NCBI GenBank assembly: GCA_026393675.1
Contig: JAPKZQ010000045.1
Coordinates: 124,001 to 188,000 of the forward strand
DNA length: 64,000 bases
Direction of reading: 5' to 3'
Origin: Acidobacteriota bacterium
Lineage (GTDB): Bacteria; Acidobacteriota; Vicinamibacteria; Vicinamibacterales; JAKQTR01
Positions within the stretch are counted from its first letter, which is position 1. Each line of letters begins with the position of its first letter. Positions 1,054 to 28,687 of this stretch are shown piece by piece. The position numbers were made by a program, and so were the translations under genes. The notes below the pieces were generated by a model. The model was not told the DNA's origin. It did no database searches and was given only the letters and a program-made list of their open reading frames with translations.

Positions 1054-1734
1054 ATGGCATCGCGCCAGTCATCATTGTTCTCAACGGTCGCCACGAAAAT
1101 CCTCGTCGCGTTGACGGGCCTGAGTCTCGTGGGGTTCCTGTGCGTGCACCTGGCCGGGAATCTCCTGCTCTACATCGGGCCGGCCAAGTTCAACGCGTAC
1201 TCCCACGCACTCATCACCAACCCGTTTGTCATCCCGGCCGAAGTCGGCCTCACGTTGATCTTCGTGATCCACGTGCTGGAGACCGTCACGCTCTGGTGGA
1301 CCAACCGCGACGCGCGGCCGATCCCGTACCAGTCGAACGCCTGGGCCGGGGGCAAGAGCCGCAAGTCGCTGGCGTCGACCACTATGATCTGGACCGGGCC
1401 GGTGATGTTCGTGTTCCTCGCCGTCCACGTCGCGACGATGAAGTACGGCGCGTGGTACACGACCAGCATCCACGGCGTGGAAGGCCGTGATCTCTACCGG
1501 CTCGTGCGCGAGGTGTTCAGCAACCCGCGCTGGGTGGTCTTCTACGTCCCGTGCGTCGCGGTGACGGGCTTCCATCTGTGGCACGGGTTCTCGAGCGCCT
1601 TTGAATCGCTGGGCCTCAACCATCCGAACCTCACGCCGCGCGTCCTGAAGATCGGCAGAGTCCTCGCCGTGATCGTCGGCGCCGGATTCCTGTCCATTCC
1701 TCTCGTGCTGTTTTTCATGAGGAGCCGATCATGA
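1054..1734 (+). CDS. sdhC: Succinate dehydrogenase cytochrome b subunit (B-type SdhC)
   Basis: This 226-aa membrane protein has about five hydrophobic segments (roughly residues 10-35, 62-85, 108-130, 152-172, 198-220), as in single-subunit, di-haem cytochrome b anchors of B-type succinate:quinone oxidoreductases. Conserved histidines sit in membrane segments (HLAGN near 30, HVLETV near 73, HVATMKYG near 125, FHLWHGFSS near 175), consistent with axial haem ligands. It anchors SdhAB to the membrane and passes electrons to quinone. The ATG at 1054 follows GGAG with a spacing of 8 bases. Its stop overlaps the ATG of sdhA by four bases, so the operon is translationally coupled. No separate SdhD is present, as expected for this type. 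Confidence 0.93.
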
Positions 1735-3680
1735 GCGGCGCACCGCAGATTGCCCCGGCAGGCACACGGACGCTCGACGCGCGATTGCCGTCTGGCCCGC
1801 TGCCGGAGAAATGGGATAAGTACCGCTTCGACGCGAAGCTGGTGAATCCCACCAACCGCCGCAAGTTCACGGTGATTGTCGTCGGGACCGGCCTGGCCGG
1901 CGGCGCGGCAGCCGCGACCCTGGGTGAAGCCGGCTACAACGTGCTCAGCTTCTGCATCCAGGACAGCCCGAGGCGCGCGCACAGCATAGCGGCACAGGGC
2001 GGGATCAATGCGGCGAAGAACTACCGGAACGACGGCGACAGCATCACGCGACTGTTCTACGACACGGTGAAGGGTGGCGACTACCGGGCCCGCGAGGCAA
2101 ACGTCTACCGGCTTGCACAGGTCAGCAACAGCATCATCGATCAATGCGTCGCGCAGGGCGTGCCGTTCGCGCGCGAATACGGCGGCTTGCTGGACAACCG
2201 CTCGTTCGGCGGCGCACAGGTGTCGCGCACCTTCTACGCGCGCGGGCAGACCGGCCAGCAGCTTCTGATCGGCGCGTATCAGGCGATGATGCGGCAGGTG
2301 GGGGCCGGTACCGTCAAGATGTTCCCGCGGTACGAGATGCTCGACCTGGTAGTGGTCGATGGCCACGCGCGAGGCATCATCGCCCGCAACCTGAACACGG
2401 GGAAGGTTGAGCGATTCGACGCGCACGCCGTGCTGCTGGCGACGGGCGGATACGGCAACGCGTATTACCTCTCCACCAACGCCGTCAATTCTAACGCGAC
2501 AGCCATCTGGCGGGCGTACAAGCGCGGCGCGCTGTTCGCCAACCCGTGCTTTACGCAGATCCATCCGACGTGCATCCCGGTGTCGGGCGACCATCAATCG
2601 AAGCTCACGCTGATGAGCGAGAGCCTGCGCAATGATGGCCGCATGTGGGTGCCGAAGACGGCCGGCGACAAGCGGCCTGCCATCGAGATTCCCGACGAGG
2701 AGCGGGACTACTTTCTCGAGCGGCGGTATCCCACGTTCGGCAACCTGGTGCCGCGCGACGTGGCCTCGCGCGCGTCGAAAGCGGTCTGCGACGAAGGCCG
2801 CGGCGGGGGCGACACGGGCCTGGCCGTCTATCTCGACTTCGCGGACTCCATCAAGCGGCTGGGCGAAGACGTCATCCGGGAGCGCTACGGGAACCTCTTC
2901 CAGATGTACGAGAAGATCACCGACGAGAACCCGTACAAGAGGCCGATGCGGATCTACCCCGCCATCCACTACACGATGGGTGGGCTGTGGGTCGACTATG
3001 ACTTGATGTCGACGATTCCCGGTCTGTTCGTGCTCGGCGAGGCGAACTTCTCCGACCATGGCGCGAACCGGCTGGGAGCGAGTGCGCTGATGCAGGGGCT
3101 GGCGGACGGCTATTTCGTGGCGCCGTCCACGCTGCCGCACTACCTGGCCAGCGCGTCGCTGCCGAAGATTGCGACCGATCACGAGGCGTTTCGCGAGGCC
3201 GAATCGACGGTGCAGGCCAAGCTCAAGCGGCTCACGTCGGTCAACGGCAAGAAGACCCCGCGCGAGATTCACCGCGCCCTGGGCCATCTGATGTGGGACC
3301 ACGTCGGCATGGGCCGCAACGAGGCCGGCCTCAAGCAGGCCCTCGCGAGCATCCCCGAACTTCGTGACCAGTTCTGGCGGGAAATCTCGGTGCCCTCTAG
3401 CGGCGAGGAATTCAGCCAAATCCTCGAGTACGCGGGACGCGTGGCCGACTACCTCGAGCTTGGAGAACTGATTGCCCTCGACGCGCTCGAACGCCGCGAA
3501 TCCTGCGGCGGGCACTTCCGTGAGGAATACCAGACACCCGACAACGAGGCGCAGCGTGACGATGAACACTTCACGCACGCGGCGGCCTGGGAGTTTGCCG
3601 GAGAGGGCGCCTTGCCCATCCGGAACATCGAACCGTTGTCGTTCGACTATGTGAAGCCAAGCCAGCGGAGCTACAAGTAG
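1731..3680 (+). CDS. sdhA: Succinate dehydrogenase flavoprotein subunit
   Basis: This 649-aa flavoprotein oxidises succinate to fumarate. It shows the FAD-binding [13 protein letters not shown] motif near residue 47, the covalent-FAD histidine at H84 in [14 protein letters not shown], the QIHPTC active-site region, [12 protein letters not shown] and the FAD-binding [12 protein letters not shown]. The long form and the N-terminal extension before the Rossmann motif are typical of B-type enzymes (Bacteroidetes, epsilon- and delta-proteobacteria, Acidobacteriota). It lies between sdhC (4-bp overlap) and sdhB (3-base gap), so the three subunits are made from one mRNA. Nothing is missing from the catalytic set that I can see. 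Confidence 0.95.
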
Positions 3681-3683
3681 ACC

Positions 3684-4445
3684 ATGGACACCATGACCCT
3701 TCAGCTGCGGGTGTGGCGGCAGACGACAGCCAACCAACCGGGCCGCATAGTCCCGTACACGGCGGAGCACGTCTCACCCGACATGTCGTTTCTCGAGATG
3801 CTCGATGTGGTCAACGAAGGCCTCATCAAGAAGGGCGAGCCGCCGATCGTGTTCGACTCGGATTGCCGCGAAGGCATCTGCGGCATGTGCAGCCTCGTCA
3901 TCAACGGCATCCCGCACGGTCCCGATCGCGGGTCGACGGTGTGTCAGCTCCACATGCGCAAGTTCAAGGATGGGGACACGATCACCATCGAGCCGTGGCG
4001 CGCAAAGGCCTTCCCCGTCCAGAAGGATCTGGTCGTGGACCGGGGGGCGTTCGACCGGCTGATTGCCGCCGGCGGATACGTGTCGGTCAACACCGGCGGT
4101 GCCGCCGATGCCAGCGCGATCCCGGTGCAGAGAGACATCGCGGAGACGGCGATGGATTCCGCGTCCTGCATCGGATGCGGAGCGTGCGTGGCGGCGTGTA
4201 AGAACGCGTCGGCGGCGCTGTTTGTGGGCGCCAAGGTGTCTCAACTGGCGTTGCTGCCGCAGGGACATCCCGAGCGCGCGTCACGCGTGCGATCGTTGGT
4301 CACGCTGATGGACGAGATCGGGTTCGGCAACTGCTCGAATGAAGCCGAGTGCGAGGCGGTGTGCCCGAAGGATATTTCCATCTCGAACATCGCGCGCATG
4401 CGCCGCGAATACGTCAGGGCACTACTGGTCGGGACGGGACGTTAA
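3684..4445 (+). CDS. sdhB: Succinate dehydrogenase iron-sulfur subunit
   Basis: This 253-aa subunit carries three clusters. The 2Fe-2S ligands are in [18 protein letters not shown] with a fourth Cys in STVCQLHM. The 4Fe-4S motif is [14 protein letters not shown], and the 3Fe-4S-type motif is [13 protein letters not shown]. Electrons pass from FAD in SdhA through these clusters to the haems of SdhC. The ATG at 3684 lies just behind the sdhA stop. It is the last gene of the operon; a convergent unknown gene ends 54 bases further on. Confidence 0.95.
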
Positions 4446-18446: not shown

Positions 18447-20975
18447 CTACCGGCGGGCCGGCGCCACGAGAGGGCCCAACGTATCGCGAAGCGTGCGCAG
18501 TTGGTACGGTTTCTGAACGACCGACGCCACCCGCGTGGCGCCGAGCCGCTCCACTACCTCCGGCTCGCTGTACCCGCTCGCAATCACGATGGGCAGGTCG
18601 GGCCGCAATTGCTGGATGGCCGCCGCCGTCTCCGCTCCGTCCATGCCTGGCATGGTCAAATCCAACAGGACGCACCCTACATGGATCGTGGGCTGGCGCA
18701 AGAGTTCGACGGCCTCCCGTCCACTTCCGACGGCCTCCACCTCGTAGCCCAGACGTTCGAGCATCTGGCGGCAGATGCTCCGCACGGTGTCCTCGTCGTC
18801 GACGATCAGCACTGTCGGGCGGCCCACCGTGCTGGCGTCGGCGACGCGAACACCGGCTGCCGGTTCCACCACCTCGGTCTCTGCGCTCGCCAGGCTGGCC
18901 GGAAACAGCACGGTCACGGTGGCTCCCTGACCCGGTTCGCTTTCGACGAAGATGGTCCCCTTGTGCGCTCTGAGAATGCCCAGCACGGCTGCCATGCCAA
19001 GGCCGCGGCCGGTGAACTTTGTCGTAAAGAACGGCTCAAACAGCCGTGCCTTGACCGTCTGGTCCATCCCACTGCCGGTGTCGCTGATCGTGAGGAACAC
19101 AAACGGCCCCGCTGCGGCCACGTCGGGCACGTGCCCGCCACGGAGCTCCTCGCGGGTCCATTCTCGAGCGCCTGTCGTGAGCGTGATGTTGCCTGCGGCG
19201 TCCCCGATCGCTTCCGCCGCATTGACGATGAGGTTCATCACCAACTGATGGACCTGGGTGGGATCGCCCTCAACGATCGGCACATCGGCTCCCAGTTTCA
19301 TGTCGAACCGAATCGATCGGCGAACCGCGGATCGGATCGTCGACGACATCTCCGTGATCACGGCGTTGATGTCCATCGGTCGCACTTCAAACCGGCCCCG
19401 GCCCGAATAGGCGAGCAGCTTCGCCGTCAGCGCGGCCGCGCGCTTCGCGGCGCTCTCGGCGTCACGCAGATAGGGCCTGACGTCCGACTGCGGCGGAAGA
19501 TCGTCGAGCGCCAATTCGAGATTGCCCAGCATCGCGACCAGCAGGTTGTTGAAATCGTGGGCGATGCCGCCGGCGAGTACACCGAGGCTCTCGAGCTTCT
19601 GAGAATGCTGGACCTGGCGCTCGAGGGCGACGCGGTCGTCTTCACCTCTCCTGCTCTCGGTGAGGTCATGGATGACGGCGAGCCGGAGTCTCCTGGAGCC
19701 TGATTGCAGAAATCGTCCGCGGACGTCGACGGGAAACTGCGTGCCATCAGATCGGCGCAAGACGGTCTGGTATGGAGCGTACTCCTCGCTCGCCAAACGC
19801 TTCTCGATTTCCGAGACCGCCTCGGGCGTGGCGAATTCCAGGACGTGACGCCCAATCACCTCATCGGGTTTGAGGCCCAGCATCGCCGCCACCTGCGGAT
19901 TGGCATCAACCACGACGCCGCCATCGGAGATGACGATGGCCTCCGAGCTCGAGTCGGCCAGCAGGCGGAACCGCTCCTCGCTCTGCCGCAGCGCCTGCTC
20001 GGCCTCTTTCCGTTCCGTGATGTCGGTGACCGCACCGGCCATCCGCTCGGGACGTCCGTGCGCATCGCGATACACGCGCCCGCGCCCCTCAACCCACCGG
20101 ACCGTTCCATCTGGCCGCACGATGCGATGCTCGACACCAAACGGCTCGCTCGGATCAGCCATCGCGGATTCGATCGCCTTCCGTAGCACGTCGCGATCGT
20201 CGGGATGTATCAGCGCCGCATACGCGTCAAACGTCCCCCCGAACGTGCCCGGCACCAGCCCGAACAGCGCCTCGACCTGGCCGGACCACTTCACGTCACC
20301 GCTGGCAATGCGCCAGTCCCAGATGCCGGTCCGGGCTCCCTCGAGCGCGAGGGCCAGGCGATCGGCGGTGACCCGCAGCTCCGCCTGGCGACTGGCCTCG
20401 GCGCGGTCGCGCCTGAACAGGAAGTAGGCGACCAACACGATCGTGACGCCGTGAGTCATGAGCGGCCCGACAATAGGGTCAAGACCGGGCACAATGGCGG
20501 GCGCCAGCTTCGGCATGAGCGCGATCATGACCGTCTGTGCGACGGCAACGACGGACACGGCACGCGCGCTCAGGAAGAGCGCTGTCAGGAACAGATTCCC
20601 CGAGAGCAGGTACAGCGACAGCACCGGGCGGCTGGAGACATCTCCCGCAATCCGGATGAAGGTCAGGACCGGGATGGCAACCACCACCACCAAGGCAGCC
20701 GCCTTCAGGTGCCCCTTTCGGTTGAGCAGATAGCCGGCGACCAAAGCCGCGACCCCGCTCCAGTTGAATCGGTGATGCGGGTAGGTCCAGAGGTTGTAGA
20801 TCTCGGAGCAGAGGAGCACGGAGAGCCCTGCGATGACGATCCGGCCGAAGCTCGTCGCCGTCGCTCGATCAAGCGGGTCGAGCAACGAGGCGGTCGGTTC
20901 CGTGATCCACCGTAGCAAGCCTGCCACCAGGGATCTGACCGGTCTCGCCTGGAACTGCTGTCCGGGATCCGTCAT
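18447..20975 (-). CDS. Membrane hybrid sensor histidine kinase with two PAS domains and receiver
   Basis: The 842-aa protein has an N-terminal block of about six membrane helices (about 30-190), a PAS/PAC domain (ALEGARTGIWDWRI... VTDITERKEAE), a second PAS (RLLADSSSEAIVISDGG... VIHDLTESRR), a HisKA domain with GGIAHDFNNLLVAMLGN and a HATPase domain (NAAEAIGD, DTGSGM, GRGLGMAAVLG). A C-terminal receiver follows: VLIVDDEDTVRSICRQML, phospho-acceptor Asp in LLDLTMPGMDG, Lys in VVQKPYQL. I take ATG at 20975; GTG starts upstream would add a non-hydrophobic 26-residue tail. No cognate regulator gene is adjacent. The signal sensed is unknown. Confidence 0.92.
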   Translation of the reverse strand: MTDPGQQFQARPVRSLVAGLLRWITEPTASLLDPLDRATATSFGRIVIAGLSVLLCSEIYNLWTYPHHRFNWSGVAALVAGYLLNRKGHLKAAALVVVVAIPVLTFIRIAGDVSSRPVLSLYLLSGNLFLTALFLSARAVSVVAVAQTVMIALMPKLAPAIVPGLDPIVGPLMTHGVTIVLVAYFLFRRDRAEASRQAELRVTADRLALALEGARTGIWDWRIASGDVKWSGQVEALFGLVPGTFGGTFDAYAALIHPDDRDVLRKAIESAMADPSEPFGVEHRIVRPDGTVRWVEGRGRVYRDAHGRPERMAGAVTDITERKEAEQALRQSEERFRLLADSSSEAIVISDGGVVVDANPQVAAMLGLKPDEVIGRHVLEFATPEAVSEIEKRLASEEYAPYQTVLRRSDGTQFPVDVRGRFLQSGSRRLRLAVIHDLTESRRGEDDRVALERQVQHSQKLESLGVLAGGIAHDFNNLLVAMLGNLELALDDLPPQSDVRPYLRDAESAAKRAAALTAKLLAYSGRGRFEVRPMDINAVITEMSSTIRSAVRRSIRFDMKLGADVPIVEGDPTQVHQLVMNLIVNAAEAIGDAAGNITLTTGAREWTREELRGGHVPDVAAAGPFVFLTISDTGSGMDQTVKARLFEPFFTTKFTGRGLGMAAVLGILRAHKGTIFVESEPGQGATVTVLFPASLASAETEVVEPAAGVRVADASTVGRPTVLIVDDEDTVRSICRQMLERLGYEVEAVGSGREAVELLRQPTIHVGCVLLDLTMPGMDGAETAAAIQQLRPDLPIVIASGYSEPEVVERLGATRVASVVQKPYQLRTLRDTLGPLVAPARR

Positions 20976-21108
20976 CGACGTCAATGTCACGCCCGAGGTG
21001 TGGAGTAAGAAACCTCTCGTAGCGTACACCGACACGGTCGGCGGTGCCACCACAACGCCAACCGCTCAGGCCAATCCCGGCACGCTGTGCGGTGGCGGGA
21101 GCCCGCCG

Positions 21109-23115
21109 TCACTTTGAGAGGACCAGCGTCCAGACAATCTTCTCCGCCTGCTCCCGGGCCGCCAGCAGAATGCGATTCAGGTGGTCGCCCCAGGCCCTCG
21201 TCAATTGGGGATCGTCGAGACCAATCCGTTCGACGGTCGCCGCCTGGACTTTCGGGTCGAACCGCGCGAACACGACAACCGGCGCTCTGGTTGCGGCCTT
21301 CGACGTCCCGCACGTCAGACGCAGCACGCCCAGGCCCTCCTCGCGAACATCACACGGTGTCATCAGGCTGAGCGTCACCTCGCGGGAGGGATGCCCGAGC
21401 GTCGCGCGATCGGCGATCGTCACGTCGCGACCGCGGTTGAGCCGCACGCTTCGCAGCCAGGACACGATGTCGGCCGAGGCCGGATACGCCGGTGCGATGT
21501 CCATGCGCAGTTCCGCCCCTTCAGCCGAGGCGGCGTAGGTCACGTCTCTTGCCGCCGCCTTCCTTCCCGCCATCTGCATCGCGCCGTTCACGGTGGGCAG
21601 GTTGTGGAAGGCCGACTGCATCTCCCAGATCTCGTAACGACGGTTGCTGAACGTCTGGGCCGTATACACCGGCCGCCCCGCGTCGACGACCACCGGAACG
21701 CCATCGACAAAGACGATGGCATTGCCGACGTCGTTGTGGTTATGGCTCTGATCGTTGTGGGCGCCCCACGCCGCGACATACAGGCCATCGGCCGAGCCCT
21801 CGCGGTCTCGTGCCGCCATCAACTGCATGTCCTCGCTCGGCAGCCACACGTCGCGCGGAAGCGGGGCCGGCGCGTCACGCTCTCTGGCCATCGCTTCCCA
21901 TCCGAACAGGCTGAAGACGGCGCGGCCGATCGAGCGGTCGTCAAGCGCGAGAGCATCCTCGGTGGCGCCCGACGCCCCGAATGCCCGCAGGAGCGGTTCC
22001 CCGATGCTCACGCCGTAGCGGTACGCCAGCGCGCGATCGACCTCGACGCGCGGGTCGGAGTCGCCCACATCGACTACCCAGTCGCCGCTGATGCGCGCCC
22101 GGTAGGCGAACCGTCCCATGTTGGCGATGACCGGGTCGGCAAACTCGTTGATACGCCCACCCGACGCCGATTGCAGCAGCTCGAGCGACTCGAACACACT
22201 GGCGCCGGCCCTGGTCCAGTAGGCCGGCCCTTCATCACAGCTGCCGTCTTTCGGGTACGGGCCGAGGTACTTGTCGAGGCTCCTGAGCGCCTTGTGGACG
22301 ATCTCCGCGCGCCGTTGGTGGGATGGCTCCACGAGCAACGCCGCCGCCAGCACGTTCGAGTTGATCCAGGGATTCCAGTTGTTCGGCCGGCTCGCGCGCG
22401 GGGCGAACCCCATCCACCAGAAGTCGTCCCGCGCCAGGTACGGCCCGAGCACGCGGCGTTCGACCTCGCGGGCCATGCGCGGCCGCACGAGCGGCGACAC
22501 CTTGTCGAGCCGATCGCCAAGCAGATAGAGCGTCCACGCGAAGGAATGCGCCGTCTGCGCGGCGAACAAATCAACGATGGGCTCATCGGTGTCGGGAAGG
22601 CCGCCTTTGGCCTTCTGCGCCCCCTGGTGAGCCGGAACCGTCCACGACGATTCCTCGGCGATGGCCCACACCGTGTCGACAATCGCGTCGAGGAAACGGC
22701 CGCGGTCTTCGAGACACTCCCCCAGCACGAGCGCATGGAGGCGCGCCCGCCGACGGAACATCAGATCCTCGAAGCGAATTCGATTGCCGTTGCGCGTGTA
22801 GTCGAGAAACACCGTCGCCGGCAGCGCCGGGATGGCCTGCGCCAGCGCGCGCTGGGCCTCCTTCGTGATTCGCGCCTTCAGGCCGTCGCTGAGGGCACTC
22901 CACTTGTCCCGGTCGGCGATCGAGGGTGCCGGCTTCCACGCGGCGCGTGCGAGGAGCACCTCACGCAGCCGCGCGACCGGCCAGTCTGACGCGAGCACCG
23001 GCGGACTCTGGTGCGCGCTCGGCGGCTGATTCTGTGGCTGGGTCGCCACCGGTAGGGACAGGATGGCGACGCTGAAGACGATGAATGTGAAAGCGCGGCG
23101 GCGGATCATCGACAT
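21109..23115 (-). CDS. Exported heparinase II/III-like protein
   Basis: The 668-aa product starts with a signal peptide (residues 1-23). It has an all-alpha N-terminal region with NNWNPWINSNVLAAALL near 235 and EGPAYWTRAGASVFESLELL near 285. The beta-sheet part carries HNDQSHNHNDVGNAIVFVDGVPVVVDAGRPVYT near 460, a pattern of heparinase II/III-type polysaccharide lyases (Tyr/His/Asn-rich catalytic cleft). The substrate may be an acidic polysaccharide such as a heparinoid or alginate, but it cannot be told from sequence. The ATG at 23115 is used; a second ATG lies two codons downstream. It lies alone between the kinase and mdh genes, so no utilisation locus is evident. Confidence 0.82.
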   Translation of the reverse strand: MSMIRRRAFTFIVFSVAILSLPVATQPQNQPPSAHQSPPVLASDWPVARLREVLLARAAWKPAPSIADRDKWSALSDGLKARITKEAQRALAQAIPALPATVFLDYTRNGNRIRFEDLMFRRRARLHALVLGECLEDRGRFLDAIVDTVWAIAEESSWTVPAHQGAQKAKGGLPDTDEPIVDLFAAQTAHSFAWTLYLLGDRLDKVSPLVRPRMAREVERRVLGPYLARDDFWWMGFAPRASRPNNWNPWINSNVLAAALLVEPSHQRRAEIVHKALRSLDKYLGPYPKDGSCDEGPAYWTRAGASVFESLELLQSASGGRINEFADPVIANMGRFAYRARISGDWVVDVGDSDPRVEVDRALAYRYGVSIGEPLLRAFGASGATEDALALDDRSIGRAVFSLFGWEAMARERDAPAPLPRDVWLPSEDMQLMAARDREGSADGLYVAAWGAHNDQSHNHNDVGNAIVFVDGVPVVVDAGRPVYTAQTFSNRRYEIWEMQSAFHNLPTVNGAMQMAGRKAAARDVTYAASAEGAELRMDIAPAYPASADIVSWLRSVRLNRGRDVTIADRATLGHPSREVTLSLMTPCDVREEGLGVLRLTCGTSKAATRAPVVVFARFDPKVQAATVERIGLDDPQLTRAWGDHLNRILLAAREQAEKIVWTLVLSK

Positions 23116-23162
23116 GCCAAAAGTATGCTCCAGAACGCCTGCCGCTCCCTGGGGCGATCCAG

Positions 23163-23230
23163 GGGATAGGCGAGAGGCGTGGGGCGTTGGTTGCCTAACG
23201 CCTCTCACCTCACGCCTCACGCCTGGTGGG
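23163..23230. repeat. Inverted pair of 7-nt-unit repeats, 3' of mdh
   Basis: The left arm reads GGCGAGA, GGCGTGG, GGCGTTG; the right arm reads CCTAACG, CCTCTCA, CCTCACG, CCTCACG, CCTGGTG. The two can form a long imperfect hairpin. It lies 7 bases beyond the mdh stop codon and may act as a 3'-end structure. Confidence 0.6.
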
Positions 23231-23236
23231 ATTCCG

Positions 23237-24187
23237 CTACTTGGCCGCGAGCACCTCGTCGGCCGTCTTCTTGACCGCGTCGATCGACTTCGCGAACGCG
23301 GCCTTCTCGGCCTCCGTCAGCTCGAGTTCAATGATCTTCTCGACGCCGTTCCTGCCAAGGATGACCGGTACGCCCACAAACAGCCCCTTCACGCCGTACT
23401 CGCCTTCGAGCAGCACGCACGACGCGATGATCTTCTTCTTGTCGTACACAATCGCTTCCACCATCTCCATGGCCGCGATGGCGGGCGACCAGAACGCCGA
23501 GACGCCAATCAGGCCGACGATCTCGCCGCCCGCCTTGCGCGTGCGGGCCTCGATCGCGCCCAGCGTCTTCTCGTCGACAAACTTGTTTACCGGCATGCCC
23601 GCCACCCGGCAGCAGCTCCGGATGGGCACCATGTCGTCGCCGTGGCCGCCGAGCACCAGGGCCTCGACGTTCTCGACCGACACCCCCGCTGCCTGCGCCA
23701 CGAAATAGCGATAGCGCGCCGAATCGAGCGCCCCGGCCATCCCCATCAGCTTGTGCTTGGGCGGGCTCAGCTTCTGGTACAGCCTGAACACGATGGCGTC
23801 GAGCGGATTGGCAATCGAGATGACGATGGCGTTCGGGCAGAACTTCTTGATGGCGTCGGCGACGGCGTCGGTGATCTTCAGGTTGACCGCGAGCAGTTCC
23901 TCGCGGCTGGGAAACGTCCCGTCAGGCCGGACGGTGCGCGGCACACCGGCCGTGTTGATGATGAGGTCGGCGTCCTGCAGGACGTCGTATTCCTTGCCGG
24001 CGACGAACTTCACGTCGCTCTTGATGATGGGCGTGCCTTCCGCGATGTCGAGACACTTGCCCTTGGCGACATCCGGACCTTTCACGTCCACGAGCGCCAC
24101 GGTCGCCGCCAGCTTGCGCTGGAACAGCTCCTGCGCCAGCACGCCGCCGATATTGCCGCCGCCGATGAGTCCGATCTTCTTGAGCAT
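23237..24187 (-). CDS. mdh: Malate dehydrogenase (LDH-like type) with extended substrate loop
   Basis: This 316-aa enzyme has the NAD-binding IGLIGGGNIGG at residue 5 and the catalytic set: His182 in LGGHGDDMVP and Asp/Arg in LDSARYRYF near 154-158. R84 in TAGVPR marks malate/oxaloacetate specificity. Between R84 and LL the loop is 13 residues long (TVRPDGTFPSREE); the common bacterial form (KPGMSRDD) has 8, so five residues are inserted. GGAGG precedes the ATG by 9 bases. It oxidises malate to oxaloacetate in the TCA cycle. It is divergent from kdsB and followed by a structured repeat. Confidence 0.93.
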   Translation of the reverse strand: MLKKIGLIGGGNIGGVLAQELFQRKLAATVALVDVKGPDVAKGKCLDIAEGTPIIKSDVKFVAGKEYDVLQDADLIINTAGVPRTVRPDGTFPSREELLAVNLKITDAVADAIKKFCPNAIVISIANPLDAIVFRLYQKLSPPKHKLMGMAGALDSARYRYFVAQAAGVSVENVEALVLGGHGDDMVPIRSCCRVAGMPVNKFVDEKTLGAIEARTRKAGGEIVGLIGVSAFWSPAIAAMEMVEAIVYDKKKIIASCVLLEGEYGVKGLFVGVPVILGRNGVEKIIELELTEAEKAAFAKSIDAVKKTADEVLAAK

Positions 24188-24425: not shown

Positions 24426-26872
<2,447 letters not shown>

Positions 26873-26885
26873 CGGGGGGGCTATA

Positions 26886-27731
26886 ATGACCACCGTGACA
26901 CCGGTAACCATCGGCTCTGTGACCATCGGCGGCGGCCATCCGCTCGTCCTGGTTGGCGGCCCGTGCGTCATCGAGAGCGAGGCGCACGCCATCGGCCTCG
27001 GCTCCTCCATCGCCGATATCGCCAGCCGCTGCGGTGTCCCGTTCATCTTCAAGGCGTCGTTCGACAAGGCGAACCGCACGTCGCTGCGCTCGTACCGGGG
27101 TCCCGGCCTTGACGACGGCCTGCGCATCCTCGCGGCAGTCAAGGCCCAGCTGGGCGTGCCCGTGCTCACCGACATCCACGAACCCGGGCAGGCGGCGCGC
27201 GCGGCCGAGGTGGTCGACGTGCTGCAGATTCCCGCCTTCCTGTGCCGGCAGACCGACCTGCTGCTGGCGGCCGCACGCACGGGAAAGGCGATCAACATCA
27301 AGAAGGGCCAGTTCCTCGCGCCGCACGACATGCGGCACGCCATCGAGAAGATCACGTCGGCCAACAACCGCCAGATCATCGTGACCGAACGCGGCGCGTC
27401 GTTCGGTTACAACAACCTGGTGGTGGACATGCGGTCGTTTCCGATCCTCAGGGGCTTCGGGTTCCCGGTGGTGTTCGACGTCACGCACAGCCTGCAACTG
27501 CCGGGCGGCGGGGACGGCGTGACGGCGGGCCAGGCGCAGTACATCGACACGTTGGCGCCGGCCGGCGTGGCCGCTGGCATTGATGGGGTGTTTCTCGAAA
27601 TCCACGAGAACCCGCCCGCAGCGTATAGCGACGCGCAGAATACCCTGGCGCTTGACGCCCTGGAACCCTTGCTGCGCCTGCTCGTCGGGATTGACGCGCT
27701 TCGCCGGGCCTCGGATGGGAGTCGGCCGTGA
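26886..27731 (+). CDS. kdsA: 3-deoxy-8-phosphooctulonate (Kdo-8-phosphate) synthase
   Basis: This 281-aa enzyme condenses phosphoenolpyruvate with arabinose-5-phosphate. It shows GGPCVIESEAHA near 22, FKASFDKANRTSLRSYRGPGLDDGL, TDIHEPGQA, IPAFLCRQTDLL, NIKKGQFLAPHDM and VFDVTHSLQLPGG. The IPAFLCRQ cysteine near residue 120 lies at the start of the segment used to separate metal-dependent from independent types, but I do not assign a type. The ATG at 26886 follows a GGGGGG run. Its TGA overlaps the GTG start of kdsD, so the two are coupled. Confidence 0.95.
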   Translation: MTTVTPVTIGSVTIGGGHPLVLVGGPCVIESEAHAIGLGSSIADIASRCGVPFIFKASFDKANRTSLRSYRGPGLDDGLRILAAVKAQLGVPVLTDIHEPGQAARAAEVVDVLQIPAFLCRQTDLLLAAARTGKAINIKKGQFLAPHDMRHAIEKITSANNRQIIVTERGASFGYNNLVVDMRSFPILRGFGFPVVFDVTHSLQLPGGGDGVTAGQAQYIDTLAPAGVAAGIDGVFLEIHENPPAAYSDAQNTLALDALEPLLRLLVGIDALRRASDGSRP

Positions 27732-28687
27732 CGATTGACCTGGACCTGGCGCGCAAGGTGCTCACCATTGAAGCCTCGGCGGTGCTCGGCCTGGTCGACC
27801 GTGTTGATGATCGGTTCTCGCAGGTCGTGACGCTGCTCTACCAATGCCAGGGCCGCGTGATCGTCACGGGCATGGGCAAGTCGGGCATCATCGCGCGGAA
27901 GATGGCGGCCACCTTCACGAGCACCGGTACGCCGGCCTTCTTTCTCCATCCGGCAGAGGCGGTCCACGGCGACCTTGGTGTCGTCCAAAGCAACGACGTC
28001 GTCGTGGCGTTGTCTTACACCGGAGAAACGGCTGAACTGCTCAGGCTGCTCGAGACCATCCGCCGGATTGGCGCCAAACTCGTGGCCATGACGGGATCGC
28101 CCTTGTCGACGCTCGGACGCGCGTCCGATATCGTCCTCGACTGCGGCGTGAGCGAGGAGGCCTGCCCGCTCAATCTCGCGCCGACCGCGAGCACGACGGC
28201 GGCGCTCGCGATGGGCGACGCGCTCGCGATGACCTTGCTGGTCGCCAAAGGATTCCGGCAGGAGGATTTCGAGTACCTCCACCCGGGCGGGGGACTCGGC
28301 AAGCGCCTGTTGCGCGCCGAGACGCTGATGCACACGGGAGTCCAGATGCCGGTGGTGTCGCTGGATACGCCGATGCCAGTCGTGCTGGCCGAGATCTCCG
28401 GCAAGCGACTTGGTATGACCTGCGTCACCAACGCCGACGGACGCCTAGCCGGCATCATCACCGACGGCGATATCAGGCGGCACCTGATTGACGGCGGCCT
28501 GCTCGAACGGCGGGCGGCGGACGTGATGACGGCGGGGCCCATCACCATTGAGCGAACGCTTCTGGCCGTGGAAGCGCTTGCCCTGATGGAACGGGGCAAG
28601 ATCACCTCACTCGTCGTCGTCGACGCGGACCGCAGGTTGGAGGGCGTGCTGCACCTGCACGACCTCTGGCGCACGCAGATGTTCTGA
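27728..28687 (+). CDS. kdsD: Arabinose-5-phosphate isomerase
   Basis: This 319-aa protein has an SIS domain and two CBS repeats, the KdsD/KpsF/GutQ layout. The SIS part shows [37 protein letters not shown] near 47 and SYTGETAELLRLL near 97. The CBS pair covers about 205-315 (MPVVSLDTPMPVVLAEISGKRLG... RAADVMTAGPITIERTLLAVEAL). It turns ribulose-5-phosphate into arabinose-5-phosphate, the KdsA substrate. The start is GTG at 27728, overlapping the kdsA stop. No KdsC phosphatase gene follows; lapB starts on its stop (TGATG). Confidence 0.94.
   Translation: MTIDLDLARKVLTIEASAVLGLVDRVDDRFSQVVTLLYQCQGRVIVTGMGKSGIIARKMAATFTSTGTPAFFLHPAEAVHGDLGVVQSNDVVVALSYTGETAELLRLLETIRRIGAKLVAMTGSPLSTLGRASDIVLDCGVSEEACPLNLAPTASTTAALAMGDALAMTLLVAKGFRQEDFEYLHPGGGLGKRLLRAETLMHTGVQMPVVSLDTPMPVVLAEISGKRLGMTCVTNADGRLAGIITDGDIRRHLIDGGLLERRAADVMTAGPITIERTLLAVEALALMERGKITSLVVVDADRRLEGVLHLHDLWRTQMF

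Follow-up and report, generated by a model that had tools for sequence, protein, structure and literature searches.

The locus studied here raises the question of whether a malate dehydrogenase (MDH) with a lengthened substrate-specificity loop is still an ordinary enzyme of the TCA cycle, or whether it also acts on lactate, as do the lactate dehydrogenases (LDHs) of Apicomplexa. The gene lies in the window, a stretch of 64,000 nucleotides from the genome of a Vicinamibacterales bacterium, as an open reading frame (23237-24187, minus strand) that starts with ATG and encodes 316 amino acids. Residues 82-99 of the protein read V-P-R84-TVRPDGTFPSREE-LL, and 13 residues separate Arg84 from Leu98-Leu99. 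The gene, its key residues and a pathway operon are located as follows:

23237..24187, minus strand: malate dehydrogenase (LDH-like / type 3), 316 aa, single copy in the genome (open reading frame and translation, NCBIfam, Pfam, AlphaFold)
23897..23935, minus strand: extended specificity loop, residues 85-97 (TVRPDGTFPSREE), core motif P88-D89-G90-T91-F92-P93 (alignment of 168 distinct sequences)
23936..23938, minus strand: Arg84 codon CGC, equivalent to the specificity residue Arg102 (R in 49/49 long-loop and 117/118 short-loop sequences)
23903..23905, minus strand: Arg95 codon CGC, equivalent to the catalytic Arg109 (invariant in all sequences)
23642..23644, minus strand: His182 codon, equivalent to the catalytic His195 (invariant)
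1054..4445, plus strand: sdhC-sdhA-sdhB succinate dehydrogenase operon, pathway context and not part of the enzyme (NCBIfam)

The gene most likely (probability of about 0.8) encodes the housekeeping NAD-type MDH of this bacterium, a strict TCA-cycle enzyme that belongs to a clade with a fixed five-residue loop extension; the enzyme very probably still works on malate. The protein contains the Pfam domains Ldh_1_N and Ldh_1_C and passes the NCBIfam model PRK06223 for malate dehydrogenase (340 bits against a cut-off of 283). It misses the equivalog profile of bacterial MDH, TIGR01763 (302 bits; cut-off 351.85), and by these scores it is of the same kind as that family, but a divergent subfamily. 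All LDH profile models stayed below cut-off, including TIGR01771 for canonical L-lactate dehydrogenase (208 bits; cut-off 303.55). The signature of LDH-like (type 3) MDHs, which consists of R102, M199, A/S246 and P250 (PMC9486893), is present in the query and its clade as R84, M186, A231 and P235, and none of the four residues of the canonical L-LDH signature (Q102, D/E199, T246, I250) occurs in the window protein. The MDH-type residues of the query comprise Arg84 (102), Arg95 (109), Asp155 (168), Arg158 (171), His182 (195), Met186 (199), Ala231 (246) and Pro235 (250). The GC content of the gene (64%, GC3 91%) is close to that of the window (65%), as expected for a native gene.

Relatives were collected by a scan of named genomes and a scan of 297 genomes of the phylum. 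The identities of the homologues range from ~63 to 93% and then drop to ~54%. All relatives above this gap that were read have the 13-residue loop and keep the arginine, and all those below it have an 8-residue loop, except for one sequence of 14 (L015). The alignment of 168 distinct sequences thus contains 49 loops of 13 residues, 118 of 8 and one of 14, which bears out the first-pass annotation in its statement that the loop exceeds the usual length of 8, and the loop is no private oddity of the window protein. The long-loop consensus, R-x-x-[RK]-P-D-G-[ST]-[LIFMY]-P-[ST]-R-E-E-L-L, is found in all 49 distinct homologues, with Arg84 (102), Pro88, Asp89, Gly90, Pro93, Arg95 (109), Glu96, Glu97, Leu98 and Leu99 invariant and residues 87 (R/K), 91 (T/S) and 94 (S/T) variable. 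An almost invariant motif of the same length that recurs in 49 distinct sequences, taken from independent assemblies, is not an artefact of assembly or chance. Position 92 is always hydrophobic (L in 15 sequences, I in 14, F in 12, M in 6 and Y in 2), a range indicating that the position does not demand any one side chain; tryptophan occurs in none of the 49. Invariant loop positions around a variable residue 92 therefore show strong purifying selection on the insertion, yet not for an aromatic residue.

Using the list of first-shell positions of Boucher et al., we found L112, N140, L167, D168, R171, H195, M199, S245, A246 and P250 to be invariant in the clade where covered; G236 and G237 are nearly invariant, and position 239 is V or I. 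Some 19 further positions set the long-loop clade apart, such as Asn78, Ser124, Ala126, Arg190, Ser191 and Glu213. The window protein and L015 had suggested that a shortened opposing loop (residues 242-244) accompanies the extension, as in Plasmodium LDH; this idea was discarded, because the deletion of that one residue is also frequent among MDHs of this order that have an 8-residue loop.

The long-loop form is held by Acidobacteriota, Calditrichota, a metagenome-assembled genome (MAG) labelled Planctomycetota (L005) and two unclassified MAGs. In Acidobacteriota it occurs in 21 of 297 genomes, distributed over six families (f1, f12, f13, f39, f55, f76), while eight other sampled families of the window's order, for which eight genomes were read directly, yielded nothing but the ordinary type (~45% identity) or remote relatives. 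It is present in 20 of 40 genomes of the phylum of L008, a record titled Calditrichaceae. So scattered a distribution suggests that the gene was transferred long ago or lost differentially. Our literature search found no paper on MDH loops of Acidobacteriota or Caldithrix. The 14-residue loop (RKKDPVTGQFPSRDDLV) belongs to an MDH of a Bacteroidetes MAG (L015:1398-2303) that also keeps the arginine and that the best tree places outside the long-loop clade; it is possibly another separate insertion. Seven Bacteroidota matches to L015, whose span looked five residues longer, all proved to have 8 residues, so that the 14-residue loop remains a single separate case. One long-loop gene (L154, genome G328) contains an in-frame TAA, which is either an assembly error or a sign of a broken gene. 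An apparent 814-aa fusion of isocitrate dehydrogenase and MDH in L004 was rejected as the product of N bases and a chance ORF that is out of frame.

The genome, which is 98.6% complete, has no Ldh_1 member besides the window MDH. Family searches across that genome found neither a malate:quinone oxidoreductase (MQO) nor an Ldh_2-type dehydrogenase, and the matches to FMN_dh were partial and weak only. The genome does encode citrate synthase and NAD-dependent isocitrate dehydrogenase, and the genes of the sdh operon score 149 bits (NCBIfam sdhC_b558), 1149 bits (SdhA, PRK07573) and 414 bits (SdhB, PRK07570). Among 29 other distinct long-loop genomes, with three repeated entries set aside, a second superfamily member is absent from 27 and present in two: G231 also carries a canonical LDH (Q102, E199, T246, I250), and G262 a canonical MDH. 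In the latter genome, the canonical gene with its 8-residue loop directly adjoins the long-loop gene (L099 / L204), and the two form a natural comparison pair.

Neighbours of the orthologues include isocitrate dehydrogenase (L004, L083), succinate dehydrogenase (L004), fumarase (L096), the transhydrogenase PntAB (L005), an NfnAB-like pair (L008) and a homocitrate/citrate-synthase-like enzyme (L010). In L010, the homocitrate/isopropylmalate-synthase-like gene (2922-4259) lies directly upstream of the long-loop MDH gene; we presume that its product may be a Re-citrate synthase. The KDO and CTP synthase genes that adjoin the MDH gene in the window's own genome have no part in the TCA cycle, and this counts against the reading as a TCA-cycle enzyme. 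These neighbours form a kdsB-pyrG-kdsA-kdsD cluster for KDO synthesis and CTP synthase (24426-28687), divergent from the MDH gene, and a kdsB/pyrG-like neighbourhood also adjoins the MDH gene in L001, L002 and L082. Downstream of the MDH gene, the window encodes a 703-aa protein (21109-23220, minus strand) whose only match, a weak one, is to heparinase II/III C-terminal (Pfam PF07940). Another gene of the window (18447-21053, minus strand) encodes an 868-aa CckA/VirA-like hybrid sensor histidine kinase that combines PAS domains with a receiver domain. The reading as a strict TCA-cycle MDH rests on the invariant Arg84, the unchanged first shell, the status as sole MDH gene and the TCA-gene neighbourhoods of the relatives.

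The AlphaFold2 model, built with 66 sequences, has a pLDDT of 95.8 overall and a lower one, 86-87, in the blocks containing the loop. The nearest solved structure is that of an ancestral apicomplexan MDH (4plw; Z 46.5, rmsd 1.2), followed by other type 3 MDHs; the Z values against the short-loop AncMDH2 (46.5) and the engineered AncMDH2-INS (44.9) differ too weakly to discriminate. We propose that the extra [RK]-P-D-G-[ST] segment may make a tight turn that bulges away, and that the hydrophobic residue 92 and Pro93 could pack this bulge. Candidate benefits of the bulge would be rigidity of the loop, sealing of the lid, stability or contact with a partner.

The first-pass annotation had considered an altered or mixed malate/lactate specificity, and had stated that apicomplexan LDHs have a loop of the same 13 residues and that Phe92 lies within one position of their specificity tryptophan. 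The loop length was recovered in Toxoplasma LDH2 (3czm) and in an ancestral LDH (6vdh), and the proximity of Phe92 (Arg84+8) to the tryptophan (Lys102+9) holds counted either way. The change of specificity is not supported by the sequences: Arg84, which the annotation had correctly described as kept, and the first-shell MDH residues are conserved, position 92 is never tryptophan, and the genome, with its citrate synthase, NAD-dependent isocitrate dehydrogenase and succinate dehydrogenase, offers no other MDH candidate. An argument for a natural bifunctional MDH/LDH, with two closed forms of the loop in which Arg84 turns in for oxaloacetate and the hydrophobic residue 92 for pyruvate, is AncMDH2-INS, an ancestral MDH that received the apicomplexan insert with Arg102 kept and became highly active on both substrates; in its crystal, Trp107f is turned inward and Arg102 outward (Boucher et al. 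2014, PMC4109310). Dual activity is therefore conceivable in the window enzyme, and, as Arg102 lies out of the closed site in AncMDH2-INS, whose structure is the only one to combine Arg102 with an apicomplexan-type insert, an invariant arginine is no proof of substrate contact. AncMDH2-INS is also the PDB sequence most similar to the window protein, residue 92 is always hydrophobic, and most carrier genomes are without a separate Ldh_1 enzyme. However, the inserted PDG-x-x-P is unrelated to KSDKEW, the tryptophan is never found at position 92, which is one position too far when counted back from Arg109, and at least one carrier retains a separate canonical LDH. In addition, the same insert in the modern PfMDH and CpMDH lowered oxaloacetate activity more than 100-fold without a gain on pyruvate (PMC4109310). 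A 13-residue length with Arg102 is thus compatible with bifunctionality, but the outcome depends on the tryptophan and the background. We regard a bifunctional window enzyme as unlikely. We consider it quite unlikely that the clade as a whole is a natural and widespread group that gained the apicomplexan-length loop independently, kept Arg102 and handles oxaloacetate and pyruvate through alternative closures, serving as MDH and LDH where no other Ldh_1 enzyme exists; if true, it would be the living counterpart of the resurrected intermediate AncMDH2-INS. That the real substrate is a different 2-oxoacid is very improbable: loop insertions do go with a substrate change in HicDHs and FrsC, but residue 102 is not arginine in those enzymes and is arginine in 49/49 long-loop sequences, and the sole MDH gene and the TCA-gene neighbourhoods of the relatives also argue against it.

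The origin of the insertion was addressed with a tree built without the loop columns, in which 28 long-loop rows were included. They form one clade (SH-aLRT 100) within the type 3 MDHs, on a long stem of 0.72. The best tree places both Toxoplasma LDH2 and the ancestral apicomplexan LDH together with the short-loop ancestral apicomplexan MDH (support 99) among alphaproteobacterial MDHs. The suggestion of the annotation that the insertion arose independently is thus favoured by the separate placement of the clade and by the dissimilar inserts, and falls short of proof, since the deep branches of the tree are short and an AU test did not reject the long-loop clade and the apicomplexan LDHs as one clade (p 0.44, lnL difference 4.1). 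Uniting the clade with L015 was not rejected either (p 0.42). That AU result is compatible with a common ancestry of the two loops, a reading we consider highly improbable, because the well-supported branches of the best tree force separate changes, the insert sequences differ and the apicomplexan insertion has been placed after a duplication of MDH within Apicomplexa (Boucher et al. 2014, PMC4109310). The loop of the long-loop clade probably has an origin independent of apicomplexan LDH.

The clade has kept the same extension fixed for a long time while Arg102 stayed invariant. Whether the insertion alone, or tryptophan together with the loss of Arg102, is needed for pyruvate activity can therefore be tested in natural enzymes, a question that could otherwise be put to reconstructed ancestors alone. 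Should the enzymes be strict MDHs, as we expect, the outcome is a modest correction, namely that lactate activity cannot be predicted from the length of the loop alone, and a caution against annotating long-loop MDHs as LDHs. The window protein is a slightly unusual enzyme of ordinary function, and the clade-defining loop extension is its distinctive feature.

A comparison with known systems places the enzyme close to the type 3 MDHs of Methylobacterium extorquens (4ros) and Chloroflexus (1guy), with which it shares the fold (Z ~45), the catalytic residues, Arg102, M199, A246 and P250. By contrast, these MDHs have 8 residues between Arg102 and the LL/LI pair, a length that is usual for type 3 MDHs without defining them strictly, against 13 in the window enzyme, and the ~19 further clade-specific positions also distinguish the long-loop enzymes from them. 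AncMDH2-INS (4plt, 4plv, 4ply), the engineered ancestral apicomplexan MDH with a loop insert, likewise keeps Arg102 and has a 13-residue loop, but its insert is KSDKEW with Trp107f, and the protein is artificial and bifunctional, with Arg102 swung out in the crystal. The apicomplexan LDHs of Plasmodium and Toxoplasma have the same loop length and differ in their Lys102, in the obligatory Trp107f and in their separate place in the best tree; in the long-loop clade Arg84 is invariant, and the position of Trp107f is taken by Pro93 in the window MDH (counted back from Arg109). The phenyllactate dehydrogenase FrsC and the HicDHs carry an insertion in the same loop, but they belong to different clades, act on aromatic or branched substrates and have neither arginine nor, by the criterion for this group, glutamine at position 102. 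In the natural lengthened-loop enzymes that we found described (apicomplexan LDHs, HicDHs and FrsC), Arg102 was lost and the substrate changed, whereas the long-loop MDHs combine the extended loop with an arginine in 49 of 49 sequences.
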